64,000 nt of DNA from Chrysoperla carnea (Eukaryota > Arthropoda > Insecta > Neuroptera > Chrysopidae): positions 70,700,368-70,764,367 of the forward strand of contig NC_058337.1 in assembly GCF_905475395.1 (NCBI RefSeq), written 5' to 3'. The translations under genes and the position numbers were made by a program. Numbering within the stretch: the first letter of the stretch is position 1; the number at the start of each line of letters is the position of its first letter. Under the pieces are notes generated by a model. The model saw nothing but the letters and a program-made list of their open reading frames with translations. It ran no database searches and had not been told where the DNA came from. Shown here piece by piece: positions 16,601 to 62,000 of the stretch.

Positions 16601-19600
16601 CAGGCACTGTCAATGAATCTTTATAAAAACTATTCGACTGCATTGTTTAAAGCTTACTCAAAGAAGTTAAAAACAAAAATTTGTGCGATCTTGCTCAGGG
16701 GGTGGGAGCCACTACTTCTCGGAGCTGGAAAAGTTTATGGAGAAAGTGATAACGGGAATCAAAAAAAGAAAACATTCTAAGAAATATTATTGAAACAAGT
16801 GAATGCTTTCCGAGTTATTGGGGATTGAAATTCAGAATATGTAACGTCAAATTACTGAAAAATTTGGCGTTTTGTTTTGACATGGTATTAATAAACAAAC
16901 ACATACATACAATAAGTGTATACTTGATACAATATCTTAATATCTTAATTTGCGCACTCACGGGTAAACGGTCACGTTTACGAAAAAATGTTTCAAACAA
17001 AAGTTTTTAAACTTAAACTAATGGTTCTATCTCTAATGGTTTACAAGATTGGTTCTACGGGCCTAAGACTTAATTATCCTATATTCTACATTTACGAGGT
17101 TTAACTCACTTTTTAAGTCCAGAGGTTAAGAGTACGCTATAAATACGCTATTTTTAGCTTGATATCTCTTTCCGTTTTTGAGATATCGTGTCCACAGTCA
17201 TACAGAAGGAAAACCGAAAATAGAATAATAAGGTGATTTTATGAACCTATACCAAAATTTTGTTCGTTGTATCAATATTTTTAAGCCTTACAAACTTGAG
17301 ACTAAACTCCGTATACCTTAATATATTTCATATATAAATGTGGTATAAAAATTAATAGTCTACAGGAATATTACCGCTAACATACATAAAAATCTAAATA
17401 GGTTCCTCAGAAAAATCGTAAAATTTTGAAAGCAACTTAGAACTAAAAAATTAATTATAATTAAATTTATTTATTTATTTTTGTTTCAGATATATTTTTA
17501 CCAGATTATTTGCTGTCTTCAATAACGGTACCACATTATCCGCTTTATTTAATTCAATTAAAAAATAATTTAATACAATATTTAATGAAACAAAATTTTA
17601 ACTACCCAAAAATATTAGAATCAATCACTCAAACAATGGCGCACAAATCACGTGAAGATATCGTGATTGAAACATTAATCACACTACGTGATCTATTATC
17701 AAGTGATTGTGCCATTCGTAGTGATACAAATGCAATGCTGGTTTACTTGTTACAACGTCATCGGCCGTATGACGCACGAGAAGAACTTCCTAATGAGCCA
17801 ATGGTTCCTCCGACTTTCTCAACAATGCCAACTTCAACGTTTCTAAATATATCACCGGCTGCCAATAATAATAATCTCGTTTTACAAACAGCTCACGAAG
17901 ATAATTTTATGAATATGAATTCTCCATCAGCAGCATCATTGGCAAGTGTTCAAATACCCGATACTGATATTATAAATGGAAATTGTAATAAACTTTCATG
18001 CTCAAAAATTATTCAATTATTAGAAAAAATCATACAAAAAATGGATGAACCCAAACAGTACCAAATATTTATTGATTTTTCAAAATTATCTCAAATTAAT
18101 TTCTCCACTGGAACACCTCAAGTTACATTCGAATCACCAACAAGACAGCCTATAGTCGAACCCGAAAGACCGATTGTTGGTGAAATACAAATGGTATTAT
18201 TACCAATAAGTAATTTATTACAAAAAATTTATGTAAAATTGTATAATTTCAACCACCCAAGTTTAACATTGCGCCAGGGTACTGAAGGCCCACCAATAAC
18301 GGATTATCTAAAAAGTGTGAAATATCATAGTCCAGAATTTGATGGTTTTCAAGATATAACTGTATTCGATATTCGTGCAGCTATTTTACCAACGATTCAT
18401 ATAGTTGGAAAAATTTATAAAGAGTTAGCAATATTAGTTGCGCAATACTATATACCAGGTTATCCAATTGAGGAACCATATTTAGATAACCATAAATATT
18501 TAACAGATATTGCAAGCCGTGAACAAATTACAGCGTATACAATTGTAAAATCATTTCAACCGGTTATGGATTATTTAGATAAAATTTTATTGATCTTAGA
18601 CAATGTAGCACGTTTAAATATTTTATATCCAGGAAAAGTTTCTGATTTCCCGCAATTCCAAGATTTGGTACAAGCACCGAGGCATGGAAGTCTGTATTTA
18701 CAACGGCATGCACTTTCATTGTATGATCTACAAAATGCATTAGTACCAGTAATTGATCGTTTAACAAAAATTTTGGCCACATTATATCGAATTAAACCAG
18801 GATATAAAACCGATACACGATTTGTGGCGCTATTCAATAATTTGAAATTATTCTTAAAACGGAATATGAGCTATTCGGAAGATTTTCGATTAGAAAATGT
18901 AAAACCACTATTAAATCCAATTGTTCAATTATTGCAATATATTTTAGAAAAACTTGATGATTTTAAGCGAACCATTCGAAGTGCTGGGCCATTTTTCAAT
19001 GATATACCAATACAGGCCACTACGACAATTATTGTACCCACCATCCTACCGACAACGACCCCCACTACAACGACTACAACTACTACTACAACCACCACAA
19101 CAACCACAACTCCACCCCCACCCCCGAAATTTGCATATTTAATAGAAAAATTACCAAAACCTGAAACTGAGGAACAGCAAGAATATTATGTAATTATTTC
19201 AGCATTTTTATCACGAGCCGATTTAGAAAGACTTATAGGTAATTCAATTGACATCCATGCATATAAAAATGAACATGATTTATTAAAAGCATTATTTGGG
19301 CGATCAATTACACTTAAATTATCAGCTGCAGAATTAGCTGCAGTTAAGTATTATTTAGAATACGAAGTGAAGTTAGCACGATTAAGTCTTGTAACGCACA
19401 AAGAGATTCATAAACAATTCGATTTATCTGGAATTATTTTAGATACTATTAACTTACAAACATTAACTGATGAACAACGGATAGCGTTTGATGATTTTTT
19501 CCAATTTATATTAAATATTCAAAATGACCAAATGTCTAAATTCGAAACCTGGACAGAGGCAAAAACAAAAGGTGAATTCATGAAAATACTGTTTGACTAC

Positions 19601-19699
19601 TTCTTAACCGCATCATTTGTACCGGAAAATGTGAAACATTCCATCAAAGTTATTGTACCAACTATTCAAATGACTGGGGCAGGCTCACAACCTGTTTGA
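13607..19699 (+). CDS. Secreted ~794-residue protein with Thr/Pro linker, function unknown
   Basis: Three exons (13607-13666, 16171-16285, 17490-19699) join in phases 0 and 1 through canonical GT-AG introns. The first exon encodes a signal peptide (MAYKYLSILVLVFGLFSNNF). The second gives the probable mature N-terminus with two Cys six residues apart (SSCEITPEC). The long third exon encodes about 735 residues: a largely helical-looking region, then a run of about 16 Thr followed by five Pro near residues 580-605, then a ~190-residue charged C-terminal region. Cysteines are few and no transmembrane segment follows the signal. I recognise no domain. The Thr/Pro tract looks like an O-glycosylated spacer between two globular parts. 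The start gives the only ATG that opens with a signal sequence in phase with exon 2. An AATAAA follows at 19776. Gene-model confidence is high; function is unknown. Confidence 0.85.
13907..14110 (+). CDS. Candidate alternative terminal exon in intron 1
   Basis: A good acceptor (T-rich tract then TTTTTTGCAG, ending 13906) opens a 67-codon frame, in phase 0 with exon 1, ending in TAA at 14108-14110. The stop overlaps an AATAAA (CCAATAAATAC), so splicing exon 1 to it would give an 87-residue secreted protein (signal peptide plus ILKKTRDLVN... to ...NMFGAQ) with its own poly(A) signal. In sequence this AT-rich, 67 stop-free codons in the required frame are unlikely by chance. Phase and signals are visible; use of the exon is inferred. 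Confidence 0.45.
   Translation: MLKKTRDLVNKNNKFSNTLITLLNVNTNSNQLNLMSKLPYFLTDILKFIVPKVLTCKIIFLNMFGAQ
14111..16170 (+). other. Rest of intron 1 of the secreted-protein gene
   Basis: AT-rich intron with no further supported exon. A near-duplicate segment, TATCAAAAAATGAAAATTGTT then TATCAAAACATGAAAATTGTT, lies at 15592-15655. The frame 15513-15752 spans it and is judged incidental. Confidence 0.4.
16171..16285 (+). CDS. Exon 2 of the Thr/Pro secreted protein
   Basis: Acceptor TTTTTGCAG at 16170, donor TTCAG|GTTAG at 16286. It encodes KLAQSSCEITPECRENIF and on to DETTSS, ending in phase 1. Confidence 0.8.
16797..17352 (+). repeat. Dispersed repeat family A copy inside intron 2
   Basis: The 5' end (GAAACAAGTGAATGC) is diverged. 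The rest follows the family: GTAAACGGTCACGTTTACGA, TCTAATGGTTTACAAGATTGG, TTATGAACCTATACCAAAAT and TAAATGTGGTATAAA. It is in sense orientation relative to the host gene. Confidence 0.75.
17490..19699 (+). CDS. Exon 3, main body of the Thr/Pro secreted protein
   Basis: Acceptor TTGTTTCAG at 17489. The split codon G|AT completes Asp59, and the frame then stays open for 735 codons to TGA at 19697. The frame contains LITLRDLLSSD, the poly-Thr/poly-Pro tract near 19050-19125 and the end IQMTGAGSQPV. Codon use favours A/T in third positions, as in the neighbouring genes. Confidence 0.9.
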
Positions 19700-25900: not shown

Positions 25901-27812
25901 ATTAGCCAAAAAAAACCCGAGCCAGATTATAGATAGGTACAGTAGGTACTAAACCCCAAACAAGAAATCATTTCTTTACTGTTTCATATCAATTGACCAA
26001 TAATAATATATGCTATTTTTATTCAAGTAAGAGATATTTTTTTATTTTCGAATTTTTTACGAAAAAAATACAAAACTAAGTCTTCTCAGTACACTACCTC
26101 GACACGATGCGAAACTATTGAAAGTTTTGTATAAGTTGATCTGTTACGGTAGCACATAGTATTGTAATCCTGCCTCATCTCACGGCATCTCTTCCTGACT
26201 TTACACAATATTATTTTATTAAAATTAAAAAATAACACACTGAAAATTAGTGTAAATCAATTTAAAAACGCATGAAAAATAATGGAAAAAGTCGAAATAT
26301 CTGTGGCAAACGAGAAGATATTTTAATAATATGTATTTACAAATTTCTATAGATAAGGCGATAAAATTCAATTTTTCATACATTCTTGTCTATATAAAAA
26401 ATAATCCTCCAAAGTAAATAGATACCGACTATTTGTTAAATTATTAACTACGAGCTTTTTGGTAAAATTTTTTTTTTTTTTGGAACAACACATATAGATC
26501 TAAGGTAAAGCTAGCAAACGAAATTCAGAAGCAAAAATTTGTGAATATTTAAATTCTAAAAGAATATAATTTTTTTAATAAACATAATTTGGGGTATGCA
26601 CAGCCAATTTGTATTAAACATGAGCAATCCAAGTAATGCGGATTTTTCCAAGCAATTCTTTAGGGTAAATAGATAAAGATCCAAAATTCAATATAGACAT
26701 GAAATACTTTAATAAACGACATTATTCTATTTTGTAAATAATGAACACTAAAAAGTTCCCAATTGATTTAAATAAATATTTAAATTCAAACCAAATCGAG
26801 AACTTTCATTTTATTTTAATTAATAAAGTTTTTTCCAAGATATTTTTTTACCCTCGCAAATTCAATGCGGGCATTGTAGAATAAGAACTATTGATAAAAA
26901 TTATAGATTATAATATGCTATCAATATGGATTTATTTCAATTACAATTTGATTTGAGGATTATGAGTATAAGTAACCAAATTATAATAATTAAATTTGGC
27001 GAACAATTGACTCACCTCATAATCTTCTGGTTCTGCAGGTTTTGCTGCATCCAATGATTGTTGTGGCCTTAACAATTGTGGTGCCAATCGTGGAGCCTGT
27101 GCCAATTTTGGTTGAACAATTTGCGCGGATGTTATAGATGGTGCAACATAACGTTGCTGTTGTTGTAATTGCTGTGGAGCAAACTGTACAACACGATATT
27201 GAGGTTGAGCTTGTTGCTGGTAGCGTACCTGTGGTTGTGGATAAAATTGTTGTTGAGCTAATTGTACCTGCAGCATAATTGATGAAAAGCGATATAAAAG
27301 CAATACAAAAGCGATACAAATGAGGAAAAAAGAAATTAGCATTAAATTATACTGATATTGCAAAGAGAATGGAGAAGCTTCAAAATCTGATTATCTGGAA
27401 CTGCAAACAATGATACTATGAAAAATATTAAAAGAAGCTCGATTGCCGTTAGATTCAAATTGCGAACTTCGAACTTATGAAAGCCTTCACCTAAAAATGA
27501 TTTCAAACATACCTGTCGATCAACATTGTTTGGTAAAACTTGTTGTGGTGGCTGCCGTGCAATACCTTGATCCAATTGTGGTTCATTTTGTTCAGGATCC
27601 TTTACCGGCGTTGCTTGAGGTTGTAACGCTCTTTGCTGCGCTTGTAACAAATACTGTTGTAAATATTCAGCAGGAATTTGTTGAAATTGTTGTACTTGTT
27701 GAGGTTGGGGTTGACTTTGATACAAGGGCTGTGATACTGGATAAGCCAAAATTGTTCCAAGCACACAACATGTTATTAAAACTAAATTATTATACATTTT
27801 TATGGATGACAT
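19905..27812 (-). CDS. Cuticle protein with chitin-binding (Rebers-Riddiford) domain, 300 residues
   Basis: Four exons on the minus strand (27812-27513, 27267-27016, 20699-20415, 19970-19905), all phase 0, give 300 residues. Exon 1 has a signal peptide ending near LGTILA and a Gln/Pro-rich stretch. Exon 2 continues the Gln/Pro-rich arm (YQQQAQPQYRVVQFAPQQL). Exon 3 has the R&R consensus: YQFGFDVKDD, then GSYSVVDSDGFIRTVTYTAD, then PKEGFKAEV. Exon 4 ends in RIVYQYQ. Such proteins bind chitin in the extracellular cuticle through the R&R fold. The TNYQNRKEQRDG and PTDIVVKIP segments recall the Drosophila Cpr97E proteins, from memory. Reading straight on from exon 3 hits a stop after YLEVI; the last exon requires the GTAATA donor at 20414. 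A 6.3-kb intron separates exons 2 and 3. Confidence 0.9.
20415..20699 (-). CDS. Exon 3 (R&R chitin-binding domain) of the cuticle protein
   Basis: Acceptor TTTTTTTACAG ends at 20700. The exon opens PNPSYQFGFDVKDDLYTNYQ, holds the aromatic positions of the extended R&R consensus, and ends TQQYLE at a GTAATA donor. In-frame read-through would add only V-I before a stop at 20406. Confidence 0.9.
22412..22426. repeat. Poly-C homopolymer
   Basis: An uninterrupted run of C followed by GGGC, in an otherwise AT-rich intron. It is prone to sequencing-length error. Confidence 0.8.
23868..24296 (+). repeat. Retroelement-like repeat family B copy
   Basis: Starts CTTGATACCCGCCCGTTTCA and ends AGCGTGAAAGCGTAACAAAC plus an (AAAC)n tract and ACTTTCGCATTTATAACATA. 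This head and tail combination marks a widespread kind of insect interspersed repeat. Related copies lie at 36541 and, in part, 38238. No coding content remains. Confidence 0.65.
27016..27267 (-). CDS. Exon 2 (Gln/Pro-rich arm) of the cuticle protein
   Basis: Acceptor ATTATGCTGCAG ends at 27268 and donor GAG|GTGAGT begins at 27015. It encodes 84 residues from VQLAQQQFYPQPQ to AKPAEPEDYE, very rich in Gln, Pro and Ala. Such low-complexity arms are usual outside the R&R domain. Confidence 0.85.
27513..27812 (-). CDS. Exon 1 (signal peptide and Gln-rich arm) of the cuticle protein
   Basis: One hundred codons from MSSIKMYNNLVLITCCVLG, a clear signal peptide, to NNVDRQ at a GTATGT donor (27512). 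The frame is open upstream to an ATG at 27851, but the hydrophobic core is best placed from 27812. The Met at 27797 is a second possible start. Confidence 0.85.
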
Positions 27813-27934
27813 CGTTTTGTTCTTTTTAAAAAAAATTGTCTTCACACTCACAAACCACTATGTATTGTTTATCTTGAATTCGTAAACTTAGTTCATTCTT
27901 TTTTAAGGACTTGTTTTGTGACCTTTCTCGCAAC

Positions 27935-37800: not shown

Positions 37801-38237
37801 TTGCTTCAATAACCTTACTAACTACATATGTTTGTAAAATACTGTACTTTTTTAAATTTTCAAAATGCATTAGTGAAATGTCTACAGAAAAATTTGTTTC
37901 TTCTATATTATACCTAGAAGTTAATGCGAGCTATTCAAACCAAATTTTTTATAAATTAATTTGAGTTGCATTTTTCTGATCTATATATTTATGAAGGATA
38001 CCTGTCTTGTTTTTTCACATCGTCTTTGACTTTCACTCTCAATGTTATTATTAAATTGTTATTCAATCCATGAATGTTGATGACATTAGCTGATGACGTC
38101 TTCCTTATTTATACATAAGCCATACAGACGAAGAACATTTTCAAGAAATATAAACAAGCTTTCCAGTGGTTTAATCAAATTTGTTGTAAAATAATTTTTA
38201 AAATTTTGGTACGCTTCTAAACTTTATATAAAACTAT

Positions 38238-39320
38238 AAGCAGATACCCGCCCGCTTTGCTGGGCAATTTTTCCTTTAGACTATCACGTTACGGCCCTCA
38301 CCTATCCACCCTTTTGTTGACAATTTTATGGATTTTGATTTTTTGAAATTGAAGTTGATATCGAACTTTTTTGAAAATGAAGTTTTGCCCATGATACTCG
38401 CTGACATTGTAACTTTCTATAGATCCAATCATTAAATTAACCTGATTTTTATACTTTTTGGATCAGAATTATCCAATCCACCGAGTTACATCAAATTTCA
38501 AAACGAAAATTTCTTTTGGGATTTTCTCGATTTTTTAAAGGGGTACCCCCTTACAAAATTGCAAAAAAATCGAGAAATTTTTTTATTTCCAATTTCTATA
38601 AAACTCAATATATGTGGTAATTTTGACAAAAAAAGTAAAAAAAATCGGGTGCATTTGATGACTGGACCGAATAGTTTTTGAGATACGGACTAAAATCGAT
38701 CCAAATATTGCGATATCTCAGAAACTCTGCAAAAAATCATTAAATTAACCTGATTTTTATACTTTTTGGATCAAAATTACCCCATTCACCGAGTTTCATG
38801 AAATTCCAAAACAAAATTTTTTTTTGCGTTTTTCTCAATTTTTTAAAGGGCCTTAAAAAAAATCGAGAAATTTTTTGTATCTCCAATTTTGATAAAACTC
38901 AGTATGTAAAGTAGTTTTGACCCATAAAGTACAAAAATCGTTTGCATTTGATGACTGGTCGAATAGTTTTTGAGATACGGACTAAAATTGAATCGAACAT
39001 TGCGATATCTCAGAAACACATTTCATTGTAACTTATTATAGGTGAAATAATTTTTAAAATCGATTAAGTAGATAATTCAAAAATGACGAATTTTCATAAA
39101 AACTCATCCCCTTTTTTAAAACCAAAATTACAGAGTTTTATATAAACTTTCATCTCCAATTTGACCCTCTTAAAGAATAACGAAAGTAAAATAAACTTTT
39201 GTCTCAAACCATGAGCTTATATATCAAGTTTTATATGTATTTCTATTTCTTTTATATTTCAGCGGTTTGAGCTGTGCGTTGATCAATCAGTCAGCTTTAA
39301 TTCTTATATATATTGATTTA
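38238..39320 (+). repeat. Composite repeat with an internal ~308-bp tandem duplication
   Basis: It opens like family B (AGATACCCGCCCGCTTTGCT). A unit starting ATTAAATTAACCTGATTTTT occurs at 38431 and 38739; both copies run through ACCGAGTT-CAT, TTTTTAAAGG, ATCGAGAAATTTTTT, TTTGCATTTGATGACTGG and GCGATATCTCAGAAAC. The end (CAGCGGTTTGAGCTGTGCGT, TGATCAATCAGTCAGCTTTA) is another familiar insect repeat tail. Confidence 0.65.
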
Positions 39321-39529
39321 GGGAAAACATTTCAATCCCTTTCAACCCTCCATGCAATGCGGCAACGGACGAAAAATTTTTGACCAATAGATGCCAAAAC
39401 TAGAAAGTACAAGTTTTCAAATGAGCTATTGATGTTCCGAATTGGATTTTTTTTCGATGCGATACACCTGTTTGAAATTTAGATAAAGTTTTGTGTAAAA
39501 ATTTTGTTCCCTTAATAAATTAACGCAGT

Positions 39530-39695
39530 ATATATATATGTTACAGGAAAAGTTGATTGAAAGTTAGAGTTGACTCTTCATAGGCAGAGTAAACTCTTAC
39601 TAAAAACATCAGCAACAGTTGATTCAAAATAAGTAAACTGATTCCTAGAAAGAGTTAACTCCTACTAATGATTAGTAAAAGTTGATCAATGGTAA
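39530..39695. repeat. Cluster of GAGTnnACTC-type near-palindromic motifs
   Basis: Within about 160 bases are GAGTTGACTC, GAGTAAACTC, CAGTTGATTC, GTAAACTGATTC and the perfect palindrome GAGTTAACTC, separated by 20-40 bases. The arrangement is irregular and no coding frame covers it. Confidence 0.45.
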
Positions 39696-40047
39696 GTTCA
39701 AGAGGGAAATATTTTGGATTGTGATTGTAGGTTTTTTTGATTGAAATCTTGTTTGTTGAAAATTGAAATATTACTGAAAATGTAACATTTTAAGCAAAAA
39801 TTACGGTTTGGTATATATATATAAGATTTATATGTCACGATGGATCTCTTATAATATGAACAAAATATATTCATGGAATTTTGCAGATTGTAATACAATT
39901 TAGACACCACACCCTAGGAATTTGTTTATTTCTTTGGTAATAATGACTTTATGTTACTTCAAGAAAATATGTATCCATTCAATATATCAATTATGAGCTC
40001 CAGTAGTTCAATGAAGTTTTAAAATATTCAAATTACATAATCAGGTT

Positions 40048-40130
40048 GTCAACCCTAATAGCTCAGTTAGTTAAAGAGTAAACAATTCCGTTCGCGATAG
40101 GCATAGAGTAGATGGTTCGATTAAAATAAA
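40048..40130 (+). repeat. tRNA-derived SINE head, truncated
   Basis: TAGCTCAGTTAG (40059-40070) and GGTTCGATT (40114-40122) match the A and B boxes. CAACCCTAATAGCTCAGTTA and TTCGCGATAGGCATAGAGTA align to the SINE at 34512. It runs into an A-rich tail and lies about 30 bases beyond the likely poly(A) signal of the peptide gene. Confidence 0.65.
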
Positions 40131-40159
40131 AAAAAAACAAAAGTCTGAAAATTATAACT

Positions 40160-40165
40160 TTTATT
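40160..40165 (-). promoter_or_regulatory. Poly(A) signal AATAAA of the small peptide gene
   Basis: Minus-strand AATAAA 65 bases after the TGA stop at 40230. Confidence 0.5.
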
Positions 40166-40229
40166 AACAAAAATAAATCGTTTCAATAAAAAATTTTATA
40201 ATAAAAAAAATGATAATTGATAATATCCA

Positions 40230-41139
40230 TCAGCCATAATGATGCCCAACATGATGTCGAACACCCCATTTAAAATTGGCATGTTTATCAGTTTTAACAA
40301 AAGTATGAACTGGCCCAGTAACACCACCATGATGCTCTCTTTTATCACGACTTTCAGCACCTTACCAAAAAAAACCAAATAATTACAGAACGAAAATATA
40401 TATTTGAAAATAACAATTGATGTAACAAAACTCAAGTCTCATTAGTAACTAATTACAGACTATTTTTACTAAGATAAAAAAATCCAAAATTTTTTAAAAT
40501 ATCCGGTGTCTCAGATTGTTTTGGTTTGAGACCTTGGATCCAATAATACTGGGAGAGATCCCAGTGGAGAAGCTATTTGCTTTTGCGTGGTGTCTGGCCA
40601 AGACAGAATCCTATAGCTTCATCTGATCAAAACAGCATCTCTCACAGGTTGTTCTCAAGAAGGGCACAGAGGACCCCTCGGTCTAGGTACTAAGGATCCA
40701 TTTGCGGTATCCCTTGTATGTTTTATTAGTATTATTATTGTTATTAATTACTAAATAATAGTTTGTAATTAATTTCTATTACTAATTATTGAATTTTTTT
40801 ATACCTAATTAATTTATTTACGCGAAAAATTCAGTTATCCGAATTTTCAATACCTAACTGCAATTCTATTTTTAACTCGATTACTTTAATTGAATATAGT
40901 TTCAATGAACCTATGTGACGACACACAGATGTGAGCATAGCTATGCGAACATTCGTGAGATATATGAGATGGTAATTATAAAGCATTAAACGTTGATTAA
41001 AATTTCAAATAACAAATTTTTTTAAATAAAAAAAATACATACTTTCTGAGTCATCTAATTGGTATGTTCGTGCATACGTTTGAGTCAATATTGTTAAAAC
41101 AACAACACATAATAACAAAAATACTTTAACTAAATTCAT
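40230..41139 (-). CDS. 75-residue secreted His-rich peptide precursor, two exons
   Basis: Exon 1 (41139-41043) encodes a strong signal peptide, MNLVKVFLLLCVVVLTILTQ plus TYA, and RTYQLDDSE. Donor GTATGT joins in phase 1 to exon 2 (40360-40230), which reads SAESRDKREHHGGVTGPVHT and continues FVKTDKHANFKWGVRHHVGH, then HYG and TGA. After signal removal, Lys39-Arg40 is a dibasic convertase site releasing a 35-residue, cysteine-free, His-rich basic peptide. Its final Gly could donate a C-terminal amide. This is the layout of a secreted regulatory or antimicrobial prepropeptide. I do not recognise the family. A TATAAATA box lies about 100 bases upstream. The competing open frame at 40196-40435 overlaps exon 2 in a different frame and lacks a signal. 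The gene model is convincing; the role is inferred. Confidence 0.8.
40500..40745 (+). repeat. Non-LTR-like 3' end, family C copy 1
   Basis: Lies in the intron of the peptide gene. GACAGAATCCTATAGCTTCA, GGGCACAGAGGACCC and a (TTATTA)-rich tail match the copy at 44985-45375, in the same order. A microsatellite tail is typical of some non-LTR retroelements; the clade is not determinable. Confidence 0.5.
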
Positions 41140-41235
41140 ATTGATTGATTATAAATTATAAAAATTGATTGATTAATCGTTTTATTATATTATAATGTTG
41201 TAACAAAACTATTAAATTATATATTAAAATTCTGA

Positions 41236-41243
41236 TATTTATA
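41236..41243 (-). promoter_or_regulatory. Candidate TATA box of the small peptide gene
   Basis: Minus-strand TATAAATA with its first T 104 bases upstream of the start codon, implying a 5' leader of roughly 70 bases. Confidence 0.5.
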
Positions 41244-41259
41244 GCAGTACTCACTTTAC

Positions 41260-42090
41260 TTAAAAAACGTTATTTGAAATTAAAATCAATTGACCGAAAA
41301 AAGATAATAATTGAAATTTTTTGTTTTTTAATTGGGAAAAAATTGGTTAATTTTTTGTAACCTTTTTGCTTAAATTAATAACTTTCTATTTCAATCACAA
41401 TGGTAGTATTTGATAAAGAAAGATTAATTCGAAATATTTTAATGAAAAACGGAAAATTTTAGATGTAGAAAAGTATAGAAGTGTTAAAGTTGTTTAAATT
41501 TTATTTTAGTTGAATTATTCCTGAGATATTAAATTACATTTTATCTATAAAGATGCTGTTTATTTGATTAATAAGTATCACTTTTTAATTTACTAGACCG
41601 AAACTATATAACTTTTTCTCTTAATTGTTACAAAAAAATATAAATCATTTATGAAGCGTGTATTGAATATCTTTTAACAAACAAAAGATTCTGTAGCACG
41701 ACAATAGTGATTGTTACACGAAATGATTAATCTATTTAATTAAATTTCAATGGATTGATCCTAAATAAATCTATGAAATAGGTCAAATTGTAAAAACCTA
41801 TTCAAAAATCATGTCGCGAATTGCTTTCCAACGACCATCATTATTTTGATAGAACCTACATTTTTTTTATAATATTGTTTGACCTCCTCAACTTATTATT
41901 GAGAAAATAAATTTAAATTCTGAAATTTTAAAATTCAAGTTATCATACAAACTTCAATCACAATGCGAACAATGCGAAGTGAAATTTACAAAATTTTAAA
42001 AAATGCCAATAAATTTGTCTTTTTCCTTGTTACTTTCTTCTATAACTAAACCTATAGGAACACAGCTGAAAACACTAACCATCAAATAAC
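41260..42090. other. Intergenic, no gene seen
   Basis: AT-rich upstream flank of the peptide gene. No recognised motif beyond short A/T runs. Confidence 0.35.
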
Positions 42091-42220
42091 CTTACTAACT
42101 TAAAAAATAATAATTAAATCGGTTCATCCGTTTAGGTGCTTCAAGGAGACAAACACACACATTGCGCTCAATTTTATAACATCACGCATTTTGCGTTGGG
42201 GGTTAAAAATAACATCTTTA
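42090..42220 (+). repeat. Retroelement-tail-like remnant
   Basis: TAAATCGGTTCATCCGTTTA, then GGTGCTTCAAGGAGACAAAC, an ACACAC run, and GCGCTCAATTTTATAACATC. This combination is typical of insect RTE- or SINE-like 3' ends. The overlapping minus frame is not judged a gene. Confidence 0.45.
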
Positions 42221-42796
42221 TTGTTCTTTTGAAGTATAAACAAGTTAGAACACTTGTTTAATACCAAAATAAGCACGAACCTTCTACTGAAATGCCTTTT
42301 TACATAAGTACCTAAATTACGGAAGCCAAAGGTAACGGAAAGTGGCCTACAATGATCCCCTAAAAAAATGTTAATTATAGCCAAATTATTCGACATATTG
42401 TACAATGTCGAAATATTTTTGGTTTCTTTACTCAAGTGTTACAATATTGGCATGTCACTTTCTTTTGATCAGTTCAAATTTTTAGAACTATTCAATATTT
42501 TTCAAAAGGGATCGTTGTAAGAATAGTGGGTAAAATGATCCCATATATATAAAGGCGATAATTTTACCTGTAACGACATATTTCAATATCATCATAAAAA
42601 CTGACCTTAAAATTTATTTCACATTTATAATACATAGGGATGTATCTGGGGCCAAAACTAAACACAAATATAGCAAGGCAAATGGAAGACACATCATTGA
42701 GTTTGCAAGAGAAAATAATGAGCACCCATTTTGACCACAAGGATATTAACAAGACAACCCCAGTGAATGTCACCCTCTGGGAATGCTTCCAATCAG

Positions 42797-43000
42797 TGCT
42801 GGATTTACACTAGGGTCAGTCGGGGCTAGCGCCCAGGGCGGCAAATTTTCTAGGGCGGCAAAATTTGGAAAGTGAGAAAACATTTTCTATACAATATATA
42901 AATAACTAATTCTTTTAAATAAACATTTGATGAAACTTTCAAGAAATATATAATTGCATTATGTATCAAATTAAAATTTTGTATATTATAATATATTAAA
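42797..43000 (+). mobile_element. hAT-like element, left end only
   Basis: CAGTGCTGGATTTACACTAG, then GGGGCTAGCGCCCAGGGCGG and AGGGCGGCAAAA, resembles the terminal and subterminal sequence of another hAT family (CAGTGCTGGATTTACA end). No matching right end (TGTAAATCCAGCACTG) was seen, so it is truncated, possibly by the mariner-derived piece beginning near 43040. Confidence 0.55.
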
Positions 43001-43039: not shown

Positions 43040-43366
43040 TGATTTTTTGAAGAATAAAATACTGTTTTCTGAAGGGAAAAAATACAGAGTCCGGAAACTC
43101 ATTATCAAGCCAAGTTTTTGCTTCCACTGTATTTTTTCCCTTCAGAAAACAGTATTTTATCAAATCACGAAATTCCTTTTTTTCCATTTTTTTCACAATA
43201 ACAAAAGTTGCTTCACAAAAGACGCTCTATCTCACAAACTAATTGACTTACAGACGTCAAATTTTGACACGAATCATTTGAAGGTTGGTACTATATAAAA
43301 ATAATATGCATTTAATACTAGCGACGCCATTTATGTGTCAGACCGGGGACTTATCAGCCAACCTAT
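43040..43366 (-). mobile_element. Palindromic mariner-derived element, truncated copy
   Basis: The right arm (43127-43366) ends in a Himar1-type terminal repeat followed by TA. The 39-base loop (43088-43126) is the reverse complement of that in the copy at 48604, so this copy is inserted the other way round. Only about 35-45 bases of the other arm remain. On the minus strand it encodes MEKKEFRDLIKYCFLKGKNT and on to DNEFPDS, the start of an irritans-type transposase. It shares the exact fusion point with the other copy. Confidence 0.85.
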
Positions 43367-43369
43367 TAC

Positions 43370-44984: not shown

Positions 44985-45375
44985 TAGGGTGGGGGGCTCT
45001 AGACAGGACACTGTCGACTGAACACTTCATACCTTGGAGATCTCTGATGATCTCACTTGTAGGGACTGTAGGAGATAAACTCTCTACACATGTTATTTGC
45101 ACCTGCAAAGAATGTTTGGGGTCGAAACCTCGAATTTTGGGATCCGAAACATCAATCAGGAAAATAAAATCGGCGGAAAAGCTATGGACTTTCTGTGTAG
45201 CGTCTGGCCTCAACAGAATCCTACAGCTTCATCTGTTTAAAGTAGCACCTATTATCCGAAGATGTCTTGCCTTCGAGTGACAGTTTTTTCTCACAGAGGG
45301 CACAGAGGACCCTTTGATCTTGGTGCTAGGTACCCATTTGCAATACCCCTCTTGTTTATTATTTTTATTATTATT
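44985..45375 (+). repeat. Non-LTR-like 3' end, family C copy 2
   Basis: Less AT-rich than the surroundings. GGCGGAAAAGCTATGGACTT, CAACAGAATCCTACAGCTTC and AGGGCACAGAGGACCC align with 40575-40700. The TTATTATTTTTATTATTATT tail follows. The plus frame 45047-45280 may be the tail of its ORF, but no reverse transcriptase motif is present. Confidence 0.5.
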
Positions 45376-48540: not shown

Positions 48541-49161
48541 TACAATATACATTTGTCCAAAATAAAATTGGGTCACATATACATTTGTCCAAATGTATAT
48601 ATAATAGGTTGGCTGATAAGTCCCCGGTCTGACACATAAATGGCGTCGCTAGTATTAAATGCATATTATTTTTATATAGTACCAACCTTCAAATGATTCG
48701 TGTCAAAATTTGACGTCTGTAAGTCAATTAGTTTGTGAGATAGAGCGTCTTTTGTGAAGCAACTTTTGTTATTGTGAAAAAAATGGAAAAAATGGAATTT
48801 CGTGTTTTGATAAAATACTGTTTTCTGAAGGGAAAAAATACAGTGGAAGCAAAAACTTGGCTTGATAATGAGTTTCCGGACTCTGTATTTTTTCCCTTCA
48901 GAAAACAGTATTTTATCAAAACACGAAATTCCATTTTTTCCATTTTTTTCACAATAACAAAAGTTGCTTCACAAAAGACGCTCTATCTCACAAACTAATT
49001 GACTTACAGACGTCAAATTTTGACACGAATCATTTGAAGGTTGGTACTATATAAAAATAATATGCATTTAATACTAGCGACGCCATTTATGTGTCAGACC
49101 GGGGACTTATCAGCCAACCTGTTACAATATACATTTGTCCAAAATAAAATTGGGTCACATA
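48541..49161. repeat. 39-bp direct repeats flanking the palindromic mariner element
   Basis: An identical 39-base sequence starting TACAATATACATTTGTCC occurs at 48541-48579 and 49123-49161. The second copy starts exactly at the TA next to the element. Between the first copy and the element lies a further partial copy that folds back (ACATTTG-TC-CAAATGT). The repeats probably pre-existed the insertion, since mariner duplicates only TA. Confidence 0.8.
48604..49122 (+). mobile_element. Palindromic mariner (Himar1/irritans-type) foldback element, 519 bp
   Basis: Two nearly identical 240-base arms (48604-48843 and 48883-49122) are exact mirror images around a 39-base loop, with the only noted mismatch in the second terminal base. 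Both ends carry the mariner terminal repeat (GGTTGGCTGATAAGTCCCCG) and are flanked by TA (48602-48603 and 49123-49124). Each arm carries the 5' leader and start of an irritans-type transposase; the left-to-right frame reads MEKMEFRVLIKYCFLKGKNT and on to LDNEFPDS, then runs into the inverted arm. There is no catalytic domain, so it depends on transposase from elsewhere. A transcript would fold into a hairpin of about 240 bp. Confidence 0.95.
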
Positions 49162-53052: not shown

Positions 53053-56000
53053 CTAAAACAATGCATTAAGATCATGTCACCATCACAAATAGCCATACAA
53101 TCCTCAATAGGCACAGAAATTTATAACCGCAGTTGGTGATATATACACGCAGCATATAAGACGATCACGATCAAATATATCGTCCAAATATATCCTGTTC
53201 AATAATAGCCTCATCCTACAATATAGATAAGCAATGATAACCTGACAAATAATATAACGTCGAGTAATATACTGTAAATGTAAAATATAAAAATAAGTGG
53301 GTGTCAGTAACTTAGTATTCGAAAATAACCTTGAAAGAATACAGATATAAACTTTCTCAGCTCAGCATGTGGATCTTTTGGTAGCTCGCATTAGAAGTGG
53401 GATACATATTGTTCCTCGTTCATTTATCTCACAACCATACATTTTCCCAATACAATTTACCAATTTGCTTAAGTTAACACAGGTTGTAAGTACACGCTAG
53501 CCAGATTTCGGTAGATCACATCAGAAGTGTGATACATAATCAAATTATTTATTCCAGCCCTTTTCCTCCCATAGTCATACATTTTCCCCACTTTTAATTG
53601 GGTGCAATTAACAAGGACCAGAGTTTTTTGGTAGCTCATTTTAAAAATGTGACATACAGGCTGGGCCATTTTATTATTGCTAATAACTCGTTTTGTAGTT
53701 AACCAATTAAAAAATAACTTAAGTTGCAGAATTTGATGGGAAGAATGGGGGGTTGTATTCTGACATCACAACACTTTAAATTAGAAAGTAGATTCTCATA
53801 AAATAACTAATATTTTTGATTTAAAACATTTTTCGAAAATCGTTAGCTTTCGAAAAATTATGTCATTATTGCATTTAATCGAAAGAAAACACGCTAGCTA
53901 TGTAAAAAAGCTTTACCCAAAAGTTATCAAGGACAATAGAGGACATTCGACTGTGTGCATGACTTTGAACTGAAATTCTAGTACTTTTATAAACAAAATG
54001 GCAAACATAACAATTGTACATGCTTTTCGTTTCGATAAACTAAATAACTATTCTTAGATTCGAAAATTTTACCATCTTATGGTTCACATTCGTTCTAAAA
54101 ATAATGATTTTGAATGACTATTAGATTTTACAGGAAATTAGCTCTGTAATATACGGACGGACACATCTTAAAAAACAGAATATTTAACAAACCTGTGAAA
54201 AATCTCCTCTCCAATCCGTTTCTCTAGTAGGTGAATGATTTTTTCTAAATATTGCACGGTGCAACCTAGGTGATCCCAACAACGTTTTCTCTTTTGTATG
54301 ATGTTTCTCTGAATCCGACGAAGTTTTATGACTACTTCCACCGCCAAATAAACTTTTAAATTTTGATGATTTCGTACTTTTCTCATCCAAATTCAGTTCA
54401 AATGCTAATTTTGGATTTAATTTTTGATCTGCGCTAAATGAATAATTCATTGGTGTATATTGTGTTGCTGATTTTAATTTAGTTTTTTCTTTGTGTGTGG
54501 GTGTACTGAAAAATACTTTATCATTCCGTCGTAAGGAATTTAGCCAAAATTTTTCGGGTGAATCGCCACGATTAAATATTGATTTTGATTCAGATTTTTT
54601 ATCCGCTGAATTCAAACTATGCTGTCTTATAATTTTATTTTTATGTTTCGGAGTCGGAGGGTGCGGTTTTTTCAGCTTACTTTGCACACTTGTAGTAGCT
54701 TCAATAATAGCTTCATTTGATATCACGTCCCATTCCGAGTCCTGTTGAGAACGATGATCATCAAATACGCTATCAATGCTCATTTTACGAGATTTCACCC
54801 TCGACAAAGGTCGTGAACTTGAAGATTCTTGTGATGATAATCGATTACGTAATTCTGTGTTTTTATCTGCGATTCCATCACTGTATTTACGACATAAAAC
54901 ATTCTTGTCTGCTTGACTATCAGAAGTTTTATAAGGATATGAATGACTTTCTCCCAATTTTTTATGTTCTGTTTGAGTTTCATTTTTCACTTCTTGTATC
55001 GTTTCAGCAATTTCCTCCTCAACTGCATCATTTTGCCGTTGTAAAAAAGCATTTTGTTTACGCTCTTCTTCCTGGCGATTTAACATAAATTGTTCCAAAG
55101 TGATAAATCCAGAAAGATTATCATTACGATGTAAATTTTTCTGTTTTGGAACAAACGCAGGTAATTTATAATCGGTAAAATCGCATAAACTAGGATTCGA
55201 TGCATGTATATAATTGATGGGCTTAGGTTTTGGAATTAATTTTAATGGTTTTGGAGCTAACTTTGGCGGTTCTTCAATGGTAGTTGTAGGCATATTATGC
55301 AATAAATCAGGTTTTTTCTCAACTACAGGGTCAACATTTTTTATGATATTAATAGGTGGTGGAACATTTTGATTGACCACCAACAATGGTGGTATCACTT
55401 TACGATACGATCGAAATTGCGCTGTAGGCACGGGTACATTTTGATTTTTTGAATGTTTTGTACTGGAATGTGAATTAAAGAAACGTAAATATTTTCGATC
55501 TAAACTTGTAGAACCTGGACTATCAGTAGTTGTAGCAGTAGACGATGTAGTCGATGCATCAGAATGTTTACGAGATGTAAATTTTTTCAATGAACCAAAT
55601 TTCCGTGCGGGTGATGATGAGGCTTCACTTTTCTCATGTTTGACTAATTTTTCTTCGTCTTCAGATTCATCTGTTTCTGAATATAAACTTATGTCTGACG
55701 ATTTTGATAAATTTATGTCAGTTGTAAGTGTTGCAGAGGTGATAACATCCACCCACGTTAACATTGTTTCATTATTATCAGCTGATAAATAAAATGCAGT
55801 TCCCGTGTGATAAACTTTAAACGCATTTGTACGCGACTTCACTTCCGTTGCTAATGATACAGTAAAACCTGGTAAAAATACCACACATTCTGCTTTTGAT
55901 GCCTGTAAAAAAATTCAATTGTATTTTACAATGTTTGTAAACAAATAAAATCGAATTAATTTATGATTGCATTATTACAATTCCGTACCATTAAGGTTGT

Positions 56001-59000
56001 AGGCGCATTAAAGCAAAGATTATATAACAAGCTAAATTTTCAATATATTGTTTCGGTATAATAAAAAACGATATTCAATACCTATAGTTCAATTAATTTA
56101 GTATGATATAATGTGAATTTTATGCACAACAGACAAAACTAAAAAGCACAGAATAAAAAACCCTTTAAAGATAATTGAGTTGTTGAACAAAATTTTTTTT
56201 TTTGGCAAAAATGGAAAGATCACATATAAGTTTTATAACAAAACAGTTTTTATTTTTTCATAATTTGAAAGTTACATACAATTTTAAAAAACTTTACAAA
56301 AGAGAAACGAAAACGTCCGAAGAAAAATTTTCGTAAAACATTCGTGTGACGTAATAATTTTAATGGGTAGAAACTTTTTGAAAAAAATCTCTATATGCGT
56401 ATATAAATGTATACCCATTCTGCTTTTGTAATAGCAAAAATATCATAGCTAATCGCGTTAACAGCGCTTATCATTTGGAGATGTGTGTTGTACATAATGT
56501 GTTGTACATAATGTGTGCGTTTGGCAGAAAAAAGCGCTTGAGAGCGCTTACTAGCGCTGAAAAACAAACTGTACAGTTTTCGGCCAGGAAATGTTTGCTA
56601 ACTTCAGTTGTTTGAATTCTGAATTCTTAATAATTTACAAACATATATTTAAATTAGGTTAGGTTCCCCGGTTAAAGCCAACTTAGCGTCCTAGAGGAAT
56701 ATAGCTATTTACTATTTGCTATATATTATAGCTAAAATTTCAAACTGACCCTTCGCTACATTTAAATGTTGTTTTTTATTTAAAAAATGATTATTTTTTG
56801 TTTCGGACAGATGCCAATCAAGTAAAGACATATCATATATATCTCATACCTTTGTCAAAAAGCACTGTTCGATAAAGGTAAAATCTAATATTTTCTTTAC
56901 TTGAATAGTTTATTGACAAATAAAAAGAAAGAGCTCCATTTCATTAATTTTTCTGAATAAAAATGTTCCTCATCATAATTCCATATACACATACAAAGTT
57001 AATTGCAGCCTTTAGACATTTTTTCCATTAGTTCGGCTTTTAACTAGTTTATTTATGTATATATGGTTTTCCAAATTCATACTAGGCAGCGGCAGTGTGA
57101 ACAAAAATAGTTAATGGGGTGGTAAATTGATCACACTGTCGTCGCTTGGGTGAGAACGAAGTAACCGACTCCATCCACATCATAAAAATGTAATTCTGTA
57201 TATTCGAATGTATTTGAAATAAATAAAGATTAAAAGATAATGATGTGGGTGGCCTCTGTTAGAGACTTAAATGTCTGATGAACGGAGGTAAAACCCCATT
57301 ATTATTATTATAAATTCATGTAAACCAACGCGTCTTGTAAACCAAAACTTTTTTTTTTCCAAAAATAGAACCCATTTATACCTCCATACCAAAAACTGTT
57401 GACTTTTTTTAATGTAAATATGATTAATGATCAATAACTCCAAAACGGAAATTTTACTTATTCACAAAGCTATTTAGCCAAAAATGAGTTTTATGCTTTT
57501 TTCTTCAAATAATGAATCTTTTAGAACACAGAAACCCCCACGTTAAACCTCTTTACTTCTCTACAATAAACCCACATGTTCCCAAGTGTAATTGGATTTA
57601 TTAAAAACTTACATCTTTTGATTTGAACCCATACAAAGCGCTTCCATTCAGGATAAACCATCGTTTAATCCAATTTACATTCTGGGTAGTTTTGTTACGG
57701 ATTCGCTGATAAAGATATCCTTGAATTTCTCCAGGACTAACATCTTTTACGGATACTTTCCGACGCTCTAAAAAAGAATTTGATGATGTTAGCTTTTAAA
57801 TGTTATGTAGTAAGCTGTCATCATCATGTTCATAAATGATAACAAGATAATTAGAGAAAATTTTTAACTAATATGATTCCAATATATTCAATGGAAATCG
57901 AATGTAAAAACTTTTCTGAACTTTGAGTAAAATTTGTTTTTTATAAAGGAAAAATTTGAAATTAGTTTTTCTTTATTTCTAATTTTTGATTGAATTCGAT
58001 ATCTGTAGAACATACTCTTTAAACTAAATTTCGAGTGATATGTTATTATCACTCTACTATCACAAACCTTTTTTTGAAGTGTAAACTGCTTGCCAGTCAA
58101 TAAACTAGCTATAGTGAAATGGGTGCCCATGCATATATCTAAGTAGTATCTAAATTAAATATCTGCCGAATTTATTAGATTTTCAAACAAATTTGTAAAA
58201 GTTGTTTTACAAATAATAAATTTCTAACTCAAAAATTACCTCTACCTATTTCATTTATGAACATGGTTGGATTTTAAACGATCCTAGTAGTTGTCAAAAT
58301 TGTGGTTATCGTAAGATGTCCTTCGCCAAGTAGAACAGTATGGCAATTTTTATATGACTGGTAATTTTTTTTCAAGAACGATTTGTTGAAGAAATATTAA
58401 AAAGGAGGGATAAAAAAATCTACCGCTAAGGGGCCACTCATTAATTAAGGATGATTTTGGCGATTTCTGACTGCCCTAACCTCATGTAAGAATGCATAAG
58501 ATTTCTCATATCCTCCCCCCTGCCTCTTCTTACGTTAAGATGCAAAGGCTAAAATCAAAGTTTTTTATTGAACTCACTTGCATATAAAGAATTTTTCTTT
58601 CTCACAGTTTTTCCTTTTGATATAATAGCTTTTACAGGATTCGACGACACTTTCACTTCACATTTGTTATCACGTTTATTATGAGCAGTACTTTCAGGAG
58701 ATTTGAGCTTAGTCGTCTCATCCATGGTTAACTTTGTTTTAGTCGCATGTTGTACATTTGATATTTTTTGTGGTTCTTGATTAAATACAAATCCAAAGGT
58801 ATCAACTTCTTTTTGAGGAAAGACTATTTGTTTAGGTGATTCCGATGTAAAAGTATGTGATGGTCTTGGAGGTGGTAATGGTGCTTCGCTTTGAGAATGT
58901 AAACGTTCCTTTCTTGGATGCAATTGAGGACTCTCTTCAGTTTTAGATAAATTTCTGGGAACAAATGGTTCATATGGTTCTTGAGGTTCACTTTTTTCAC

Positions 59001-62000
59001 GAATACTTTCTTGTTCCCTCTGTCGATACGTAATTAACGATGAATTAATAGTTTCTAGAATCTCACCCATTTTCCCAGTTAATATTTCATCATATACCTC
59101 CACTTTTTCCTCCGTATGTTGTTCATCTTTTTTGTGGTCAATCACTTTTTGTGAAACTTTCTGATGTGTCTCAATTCCATACACGTCGGTTCCATCAGAT
59201 AAATCATACGCTGGAGTACTGTGCGATTTATCTAATCGCCCGCGCAACTGAGCAATTCTATCAAAATTCCTAGGTGGTACTGCAGGTTTTTTTAGTGTAC
59301 TTGGTTTTGGTGGAATTTCAGGTGGTTTTCTAAATTTATGTTCATCTTTTGGAAATACATCAAGCGTTTCCTCTTTGATATCATTTTTTAAGTCTGGTTG
59401 ATACAAAGTTCGAGTTTTTGGCACAGGTCGTGATTTTGGGTCTTGTAAAATATCTTTAAGATCAATGTTATTCTGTGAGATTTTATCTTCAAAAGAGGAG
59501 ACTTTTTGTTTCACATCAATTTGTAAGGTTTCATCAGCTTTAACCTCGTTTATTAAGTTACTACGATCTTGAACTTCATCTTCATTATCGTCAATAAATT
59601 TTAAACTATCCTCATTTTTAACATGAAGTGCGTTATCTTCATATACGCCAGTGTTCTCTTTCGTCTCCTCTTTACTCTCCGCAATATCGTCAACAAAACG
59701 TACACCGGTTTTTTTACGTTCTCTCATTTTGTCATCGCACTTATTATCATCACTTAAATGCCGTTTTCCTTTACTGTTGTTTGAGCTTTTCTTTGAGGCT
59801 AAACCAATTACTGTTGATGGGCGTGGATTCAGTTCCAAGCCATGCCCATATGATACAGATTTATCACGAAGTAATCCTTCTTTATTTGACTCCACGTCGG
59901 TACTTGATTGAATAAATCCTGAGCTTGAATGTTTATAAGATGCTTGTATTTTTAACTCCCTCCAAAACTAAAATATAAAAAAAGCAATTAAAATTTTCAT
60001 ATAAACTCAAATTGTGCAAAAAAAGTGAATCGGAAAAAATAAAATATATTCGATGTATTGGATTCAAATTATCCGAAGGACGAATACACATTACTAGATA
60101 AGATTATTTTTTCTGATCCAATTATAAAAGCTTTCAATTTCTTTTTTTTTTTTTTTTTTGCAAAAGTGAAATCGCTAAGCTAAAATTTAGTGGTCATTTT
60201 TAGCACCACCAAAGTATTCATCATGAAATTATTTTCATATTGGTGAAATAGATTTAGAAAACAATAGTACCCAGAATAACGGCTAACTAAGCATGCAAGA
60301 AATTTCATCAAACTTTTTTTTTATTTAAAAAATTATCTAACGGGTATACAATCAGTGTAATCATAAAATAAGTTGGTTTCTACTCAAAATGTTTATTTTT
60401 GTACACACATAAAGAATAAACAAGAGTATGTTAATTCATCTAATTCGTTCGTCTGTCCGCCTGTCCGTGGACAGACTTTTTTTAATATATTCAAGCGATA
60501 GAAAGTTAATTCAAGTTCGAGAATTAGTAAGATAGGACATTGGGACCCATTGATTTATGATACAATTTTCAAACCATAATAGATAGAAGAAGAGTTTAAA
60601 GTCAAAAAATATTATTTTAGTAAAATCAACTTTCAATTAAAAAATTTTTTCATAAACCTCGGTGAATTCCCGCAATTTTACTTTGAAAATATACAATTGC
60701 TACATGTTTTTTGAGAGAAAATTATATTGTTACGCACTTTTTAAACATGTGGAAAATTTATTATTATCCAAAAATACTTATAAAAATCCTTTTTAGCGTT
60801 TTTAAATTTATTGATATGTACCCTTACCTGTTCAATACTAATACTGGGCGCGCGATAGAAAGGTATTGCCCCGGTGATTGTATTACGTCGTTGTAAAACA
60901 GGACGTGGTTTTAATGGATACACTCGAGGGCATAAACTTTGTGGTGGACTTCCATCTGAATCACTAACACTACTGCAACTATCTGAATCTGAACTGCATG
61001 CTGGTGGTAGTTGTGGCGTTAATCCTCCAGAAGGTACTCTATATGAAAAACATTATTAATTAATCAGTGATGATGATTTCATTTAAAAACAAATAAACAA
61101 ACAAAAAAAAGTTTCTACATTAAATAAATCCTTTTTAAGTAAAACCGGAAGTTTGTCTTATTTTGCTATCAAAATATTTTGATATCAAATTTTAAATTTA
61201 ATATTGGGTGATTTATTATATAGAATGGTCCTTTAATGTATATTTAAAGGATACGATTTGTTAAATGAAATGAATTTATTAAAATAGCCTTTGTATTTAT
61301 TTAACTAAATATACTTTATCACCAGATGTAGTTAAATGAGTCATATTACTTGAAGGGATGAGTCAAGAACACACACAACAATATATTTTTATCATTATAT
61401 TTCTGGCAAACCATGTCTCAATTGAAACCAGAAATAATAAAAAAAGAAAATCGAATTTTAAGCCATCAAAAATTGAATATAAAAGAGTAAGATGTGTACG
61501 TTTAAATATGGATTAATATTCCAGTCATAACTTCCATAGCTTCGCCAAAAGGCTAAACAAATTTTATCATTAAAAATAGATAAAATTTTAAGAATGAATA
61601 TATGACTTCGAGTTGAGACACAGTTATTGAAATAAATATTACGATACTCGAAATAAAATTGTATATTACAAAATTTTATTAAAAAAATACAACATACTAA
61701 CATATCGCTAAATATTAGTATTTTTATTGCAATTCAATCAACGAGAGTATTTAAATGTATTCGCAAACACGATGTGGTGAAATAACAAAAATTTGATCGT
61801 CTTGAAAATTTATTTTTCCCATTTGGTGATAATATTTATATTTTTATTTTTCAAGTGTCATAGTAATTTTGGAAATGCGATACATATTTATTTTTAACTG
61901 GACAAAGATTTTTTTATTATAATAAGTATATAAAACGTACATTAAATTCCATTTAGATAAGGCGAAAAAATGACTTTTCACGTTTTATTCTTAAATATTT

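Follow-up and report, generated by a model that had tools for sequence, protein, structure and literature searches.

Two short coding stretches on the minus strand of a 64,000-nt piece of Chrysoperla carnea DNA (the window, to which all positions refer) raise the question of whether they form a real gene and, if so, what kind of peptide it makes. A first-pass annotation, made from the letters of the DNA, had joined them into a small secreted His-rich prepropeptide with convertase and amidation signals, and had thought of a regulatory or antimicrobial, possibly metal-binding, peptide of a family that it did not recognise. The two-exon insect gene was confirmed, and the conserved unit of its family is a predicted hairpin and not the His-rich, amidated tail.

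Gene structure

Joining exon 1 (41139-41043, 97 nt) and exon 2 (40360-40230, 131 nt) of the minus strand in phase 1 reproduced the coordinates and lengths of the first-pass annotation, and translation of the joined exons gave a product of 75 residues, MNLVKVFLLLCVVVLTILTQTYARTYQLDDSESAESRDKREHHGGVTGPVHTFVKTDKHANFKWGVRHHVGHHYG*. The gene is indeed missed by single-frame reading, as that annotation had held. Without splicing, the exon 1 frame reads on to a stop within the intron, and the exon 2 frame has a stop just 5' of the acceptor and no Met. Since neither frame alone encodes the protein, splicing is required. One alternative in-frame GT-AG pair was present, which would end exon 1 at 41039 and start exon 2 at 40350; its 73-residue product departs from the 75-residue product only before RDKR, and its splice sites were judged by eye to be weaker than those of the main pair. 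The coordinates of all features are given in Table 1.

Table 1. Features of the gene and of its predicted product, with positions in the window
Feature	Position	Strand	Detail or basis
TATA box TATAAATA	41236..41243	-	Motif scan; 104 bases 5' of the ATG
Exon 1, coding part	41043..41139	-	Encodes the start, the signal peptide and some of the propeptide; residues 1-32 plus first base of codon 33
Signal peptide, residues 1-23	41071..41139	-	14-residue mean hydropathy up to 3.16; helix 2-32 in the AlphaFold2 model
Intron	40361..41042	-	682 nt, GTATGT...TAAG, GT-AG, phase 1
Repeat piece in intron	40644..40739	.	Second copy at 45280-45375, 76% identical
Exon 2, coding part	40230..40360	-	Remaining propeptide, RDKR, mature peptide and stop; tblastn, 148 of 148 relatives (149 alignments, two of them P0132)
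RDKR, furin/convertase-type site, residues 37-40	40338..40349	-	Sequence
Predicted mature peptide, residues 41-75 (35 aa)	40233..40337	-	8 His, no Cys
Conserved core GPVHTFVKTDKHANFKWGVRHHVG, residues 48-71	40245..40316	-	Predicted beta-hairpin; family alignment
Gly75, terminal, possible amide donor	40233..40235	-	Sequence
Poly(A) signal AATAAA	40160..40165	-	Motif scan; 64 bases 3' of the stop

The best match of the joined product in a single-sequence protein search (E 2.2e-21) covered the whole query (100%) and was 56% identical to it, and because the product matches insect proteins at such E-values the gene lies far beyond chance. That the exons are chance open frames or belong to a dead gene is extremely improbable. 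They are short, and exon 1 alone drew no tblastn match from the relatives, but the core is intact, the homology is full-length, the splice sites, TATA box and poly(A) signal are all in place, and exon 2 was matched by 148 of 148 relatives with a worst best E-value of 9.9e-10. Support for exon 1 comes from where it lies, from its splice site, from the signal-peptide character of its product, and from protein alignments that cover the full length. Rfam at gathering thresholds gave no match in window positions 38000-43000. No further copy of the gene was found in the window, where the only other tblastn matches were 19 weak ones (E 0.054-0.96).

The first-pass annotation had singled out conservation of the phase-1 join as a point on which its gene model would stand or fall, and the mayfly protein models, which bear on this indirectly, showed no contradiction. 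Short and long forms of Neocloeon (P0026/P0019) and Cloeon (P0068/P0071) are the same up to LEIDD and from GQEF, with an insert between. Directly behind LEIDD the short forms have Gly and the long forms have Glu or Ala, residues whose codons all begin with G. These protein models break where the window gene has its intron, in a manner that fits phase 1; phase 0 is allowed too. Several unnamed ORFs (e.g., P0006, P0013, P0017, P0018, and P0030) resemble intron read-through into exon 2; in them, a comparable distance ahead of the cleavage site, a residue that an NNA codon can encode stands before a residue whose codon starts with G. These comparisons, read by eye from selected proteins, are suggestive only of a conserved intron. 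Scans of viral and prokaryote contigs for the DNA of the relatives gave 59 and 19 pattern matches, respectively, and tblastn confirmed none of them.

Genomic setting

The same strand carries a gene for CNK (connector enhancer of KSR), recognised by a CRIC/PDZ exon at 63136-63915 whose best PDB match was the CNK of entry 8bw8. By position and look, this gene probably continues through ORFs at 58555-59895 and 54184-55884, neither of which had a Pfam match at E<=0.001. The repeat piece inside the peptide gene's intron overlaps part of the GC-richer middle of that intron. Elsewhere in the window, a near-identical repeat of 240-315 bases occurs at 43054-43368, 48602-48916, and 48883-49125; two of the three copies form an inverted pair, 39 bases apart, and the repeat resembles a foldback or MITE-type element of recent origin. 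The plus strand at 17510-19699 holds an uninterrupted frame of 729 residues with a Thr-rich stretch, and the minus strand at 27342-27851 holds a Gln-rich frame with a signal-peptide-like start, MYNNLVLITCCVLGTILAYP; neither had a Pfam match at E<=0.001. The Gln-rich frame is a candidate for a further small secreted protein.

The precursor

The window precursor has a signal peptide, a basic cleavage site and a Gly amide donor, all as sequence features, and the first-pass annotation had described each of them correctly. The signal-like hydrophobic start spans residues 1-23, with cleavage after Ala23 expected from the -3/-1 rule. The Lys-Arg processing site is part of RDKR at residues 37-40, and the propeptide between it and the signal peptide is acidic. 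The tail counts 35 residues with eight His, zero Cys and a Gly right before the stop. The predicted mature peptide is cationic at neutral pH (computed charge +2, pI 9.5), and its charge would be higher if the His were charged. The proposal of a secreted, processed peptide was, in addition, well supported by homology.

Members of the family

The search of the product against insect proteins that the first-pass annotation had suggested showed that it is not an orphan, with homologues in many orders. The single-sequence search returned 67 proteins at E<=10, and the closest named relatives were those of beetles. A profile of 20 sequences gave 236 matches at E<=10, 120 of them listed, and among the matches listed were new relatives with E-values down to 2.8e-22. 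With 18 more divergent sequences or pieces as the profile, 519 matches were obtained at E<=10, of which 120 were listed. From these searches, 148 distinct relatives were retrieved and every one was used in the family counts (149 sequences with that of the window).

The relatives come from beetles, Lepidoptera, mosquitoes, midges, a planthopper, a psyllid, thrips, a dragonfly, mayflies, and Daphnia. An organism name was attached to 84 of the 148, comprising Lepidoptera (41), Diptera (21), Coleoptera (13), Ephemeroptera (4), Hemiptera (2), Odonata (1), Thysanoptera (1), and Crustacea (1, Daphnia galeata). Orders were assigned from these names, and the counts are of entries, not genes, with isoforms or double models among them (the mayfly pairs and two Dendroctonus entries). 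Many of the unnamed entries are short-contig ORFs whose N-termini are apparently cut or wrong, which lowers the counts of upstream features there. Neither Hymenoptera nor Brachycera were found among the matches listed (120 of 236 and 120 of 519).

The names that some relatives carry ('Attacin C-terminal domain-containing,' 'Cuticle protein,' 'catecholamines up-like,' and 'proline-rich protein 7-like') were taken as automatic labels. The Daphnia galeata model (P0132) contains two copies of the unit, the first truncated inside the core, each behind its own signal-like stretch, and probably represents two tandem genes fused by annotation. Five proteins of unnamed source (P0031, P0032, P0035, P0037, and P0040) end in HHVGH directly after the core and have a different, longer N-terminus containing MDSLWSPHWQS.

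The conserved core and its predicted hairpin

The core of 24 residues is gapless throughout the family. Each of the 148 relatives agrees with the window at 17-24 of the 24 positions (median 22), and 12 representatives, drawn from the window, seven insect orders and Daphnia, had a mean core identity of 80% over 66 pairs, with a minimum of 58%. Five residues (K55, T56, K63, W64, and G71) were identical in 149 of 149 sequences. Only two His are near-invariant, H68 in 148 and H51 in 133 of the 149. Outside the core few columns of the precursor are conserved, and the proteins inspected have one core each, the Daphnia model with two excepted.

With the alignment of 149 sequences, AlphaFold2 predicted a Cys-free beta-hairpin with strands at residues 47-56 and 62-70 of the precursor. 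The pLDDT by block was 61 for residues 41-50, which include the start of the first strand, 90 for residues 51-60, and 85 for residues 61-70. Overall pTM was low, at 0.31, as would be expected of a small hairpin that is loosely tethered. The single-sequence model contained the signal helix only; strands were absent and the tail was unresolved.

The predicted fold and the sequence led to no described structure or domain in the databases searched. Foldseek returned 84 matches to the model at E<=10, and among the best 50 of the 84 none reached E<=0.001 (best E 1.2). The PDB gave no match at E<=10 by sequence or by profile, and Pfam gave no family at E<=10 for the window protein. For the 149 members, 34 Pfam families appeared at E<=10, and among the 25 of these listed the best E-value was 0.004 (Anophelin, one member) and the most frequent family was ZrgA (seven members, best E 0.039). 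These weak matches, whose position inside the protein was seen for ten relatives, were taken as chance or low-complexity matches.

Features that vary among lineages

The His-richness and the amidation Gly on which the first-pass annotation had built are both present in the window product, but both vary across the family. Of the 148 relatives, 44 end in Gly or in Gly followed only by basic residues, and the other 104 do not. Such an ending occurred in all four mayfly entries, the one dragonfly, 7 of 13 beetles, one of two Hemiptera, and 3 of 21 Diptera, and in none of the 41 Lepidoptera, the one thrips or the one crustacean entry. Endings in YAG, or YAG with basic residues, are common to mayflies, the dragonfly and several beetles. 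This taxonomic spread suggests that the terminal Gly is an old trait, and amidation may be ancestral and have been lost later in moths and butterflies. Among relatives that have a basic site, the number of His after the last such site ranged from 1 to 16.

The cleavage site varied as well. Of the 148 relatives, 92 have the motif RX[KR]R anywhere upstream of the core, and 43 have it within 10 residues of the core. By order, the upstream motif was present in 12 of 13 named beetles, 4 of 4 mayfly entries, the dragonfly, and 39 of 41 Lepidoptera, and was absent from 20 of 21 Diptera; the close position was seen in 11 of 13 beetles and 4 of 4 mayfly entries, and in none of the 41 Lepidoptera or 21 Diptera. 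Trimming and amidation would then depend on lineage.

Comparison with described proteins

Four uncharacterised beetle proteins share the layout and the core of the window product, namely those of Ceutorhynchus assimilis (P0001), Tribolium (TcasGA2_TC005971, P0005), Tenebrio (MTP99_007061, P0002), and Aquatica leii (RN001_013079, P0014). Each has a signal-like start, RxKR (RPKT in P0002), and GPVHT..KWGVxHHVGHHY. They end in YAGRK, YAGRR or YSG, whereas the window product ends in HHYG without basic residues. Among the Lepidoptera, 39 of the 41 named entries share the RX[KR]R motif with the window product, mostly in the form RPKR, and the core of both Bombyx P0072 and Manduca P0059 is GPVHTFVKTDKNANYKWGVRHHVG. 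They differ from the window product in a proline-rich propeptide, in an acidic, Asp/His-rich linker between RPKR and the core in most of them, and in ending mostly in YAS.

For decades insect peptide hormones have been searched for, often by homology to known precursors, as was done in PMC9552230. Two described peptides resemble the window product in layout. HanSolin is likewise a single C-terminal peptide with an amidation site; the portion of PMC7179676 consulted reports it from all polyneopteran orders and beetles and as lacking in Drosophila melanogaster, with 8-16 residues and mostly a GQPLRW-amide end in Polyneoptera. The window product, which ends in VGHHYG, has no such GQPLRW-type amide, and identity with HanSolin was rejected. 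The insect parathyroid hormone iPTH shares the signal peptide, the KR site and one conserved peptide with an amidation signal, according to the part of PMC7224569 used here. There, the C-terminus of Tribolium iPTH is given as TMPVGGGRIDPGRI-amide, which contains GGGRIDPGRI, and iPTH is reported absent from Diptera and Lepidoptera (PMC7224569). The window product is without a GGGRIDPGRI-amide end and its family is present in both of these orders, and iPTH was rejected as well.

Searches of open-access papers (without preprints, most subscription journals and supplements) with core strings and with gene identifiers found no paper, and the portions of PMC6585902, PMC12604039, and PMC12194362 examined held no description of a GPVHT-KWGVRH peptide. 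The sources searched yielded neither a descriptive name nor a Pfam entry nor a mention in print for the GPVHT-KWGVRH family.

Possible functions

An antimicrobial role, which the first-pass annotation had considered, would have fat body or epithelium produce the peptide and furin release it, after which it would act on microbes as a cationic, amphipathic hairpin. The cationic, His-rich tail fits such an immune effector, as do the Trp and aromatic residues in the predicted hairpin and the furin-type site, a kind of site also known in antimicrobial and growth-factor precursors. Antimicrobial effectors usually evolve fast, however, and the core is near-invariant from insects to Daphnia; the gene is also single-copy in the window. 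Two Anopheles relatives (P0126 and P0130) are named 'Attacin C-terminal domain-containing' in UniRef, but both, the relatives with source names that were examined one by one in Pfam, gave no match at E<=10, nor did the window protein, and attacin is absent among the 25 of 34 Pfam families listed for the 149 members. Attacins are, moreover, much longer than members of this family, and attacin was rejected. A kB-like site lies 1649 bases upstream, but one site in 2.5 kb against 0.3 expected from mononucleotide shuffles is uninformative. An immune effector is, on this evidence, unlikely. A structural or matrix peptide of cuticle, egg shell or gut lining, in which the hairpin would pack or bind chitin or other proteins, is slightly less likely still. 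It would accord with the Asp/His-rich linkers of Lepidoptera, the UniRef name 'Cuticle protein' of a Bombyx relative, the general lack of processing signals in Diptera, and a weak match of one member to RCR, chitin synthesis regulation (Pfam, E 0.006). Against it, no cuticle or chitin-binding family is among the 25 of 34 Pfam families listed, and inspected proteins other than the Daphnia model hold a single core.

The suggestion of metal binding, with His carrying metal ions outside cells, fared worse, and from the sequences we consider it very improbable. In its favour are the eight His in 35 residues, relatives with up to 16 His, and Xaa-Xaa-His at the predicted mature N terminus, here Glu-His-His, a copper/nickel motif. 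Zinc-uptake families in Pfam also matched weakly, with ZrgA in seven members (best E 0.039) and Zip in two (best E 0.18), but these matches probably arise from the His/Asp-rich linkers. The wide range in the number of His after the last basic site argues against it, as does the lack of a conserved His cluster: only H51 and H68 are near-invariant, and strand register would place these two on opposite faces of the hairpin.

The explanation that we favour, with about an even chance of being right as to function, is that the gene belongs to an undescribed family of small secreted peptides of insects and at least one crustacean that act as hormone-, neuropeptide- or cytokine-like ligands. The signal peptide would be removed, a furin-type convertase would cut after RDKR, and the terminal Gly75 would be converted to an amide on Tyr74, the HHYG ending thereby yielding a tyrosine amide. 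The freed peptide would act outside cells on a receptor, and the hairpin would carry the activity.

Several known insect neuropeptides combine a small, strongly constrained core with freely varying flanks (PMC7179676). Elevenin, NPF-2, and HanSolin vary widely (PMC7179676), so conservation is no mark of neuropeptides as such. In the accessible part of PMC9552230, a table of Tenebrio molitor precursors, compared by name and length and not by sequence, held no match to the Tenebrio relative by name or by its length of 78 residues. This absence would be odd for a neuropeptide and fits better with a non-neural source. The search behind the table began from known precursors (PMC9552230); should the peptide be a signal, its source may lie outside the nervous system, or a search of this kind may have missed it.

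More tentatively, and with somewhat less than even confidence, we propose that the family represents an undescribed peptide signalling system in which a Cys-free beta-hairpin is the ligand of a receptor and which was already present in the ancestor shared by insects and branchiopod crustaceans. Absence from, or strong divergence in, Drosophila and Hymenoptera, neither of which was among the matches listed, may be why such a system has escaped notice. The strong conservation of the core across many orders, crop pests and mosquitoes included, makes the peptide a candidate insect signalling peptide, and one synthetic peptide could be used in many species to seek its receptor and role.
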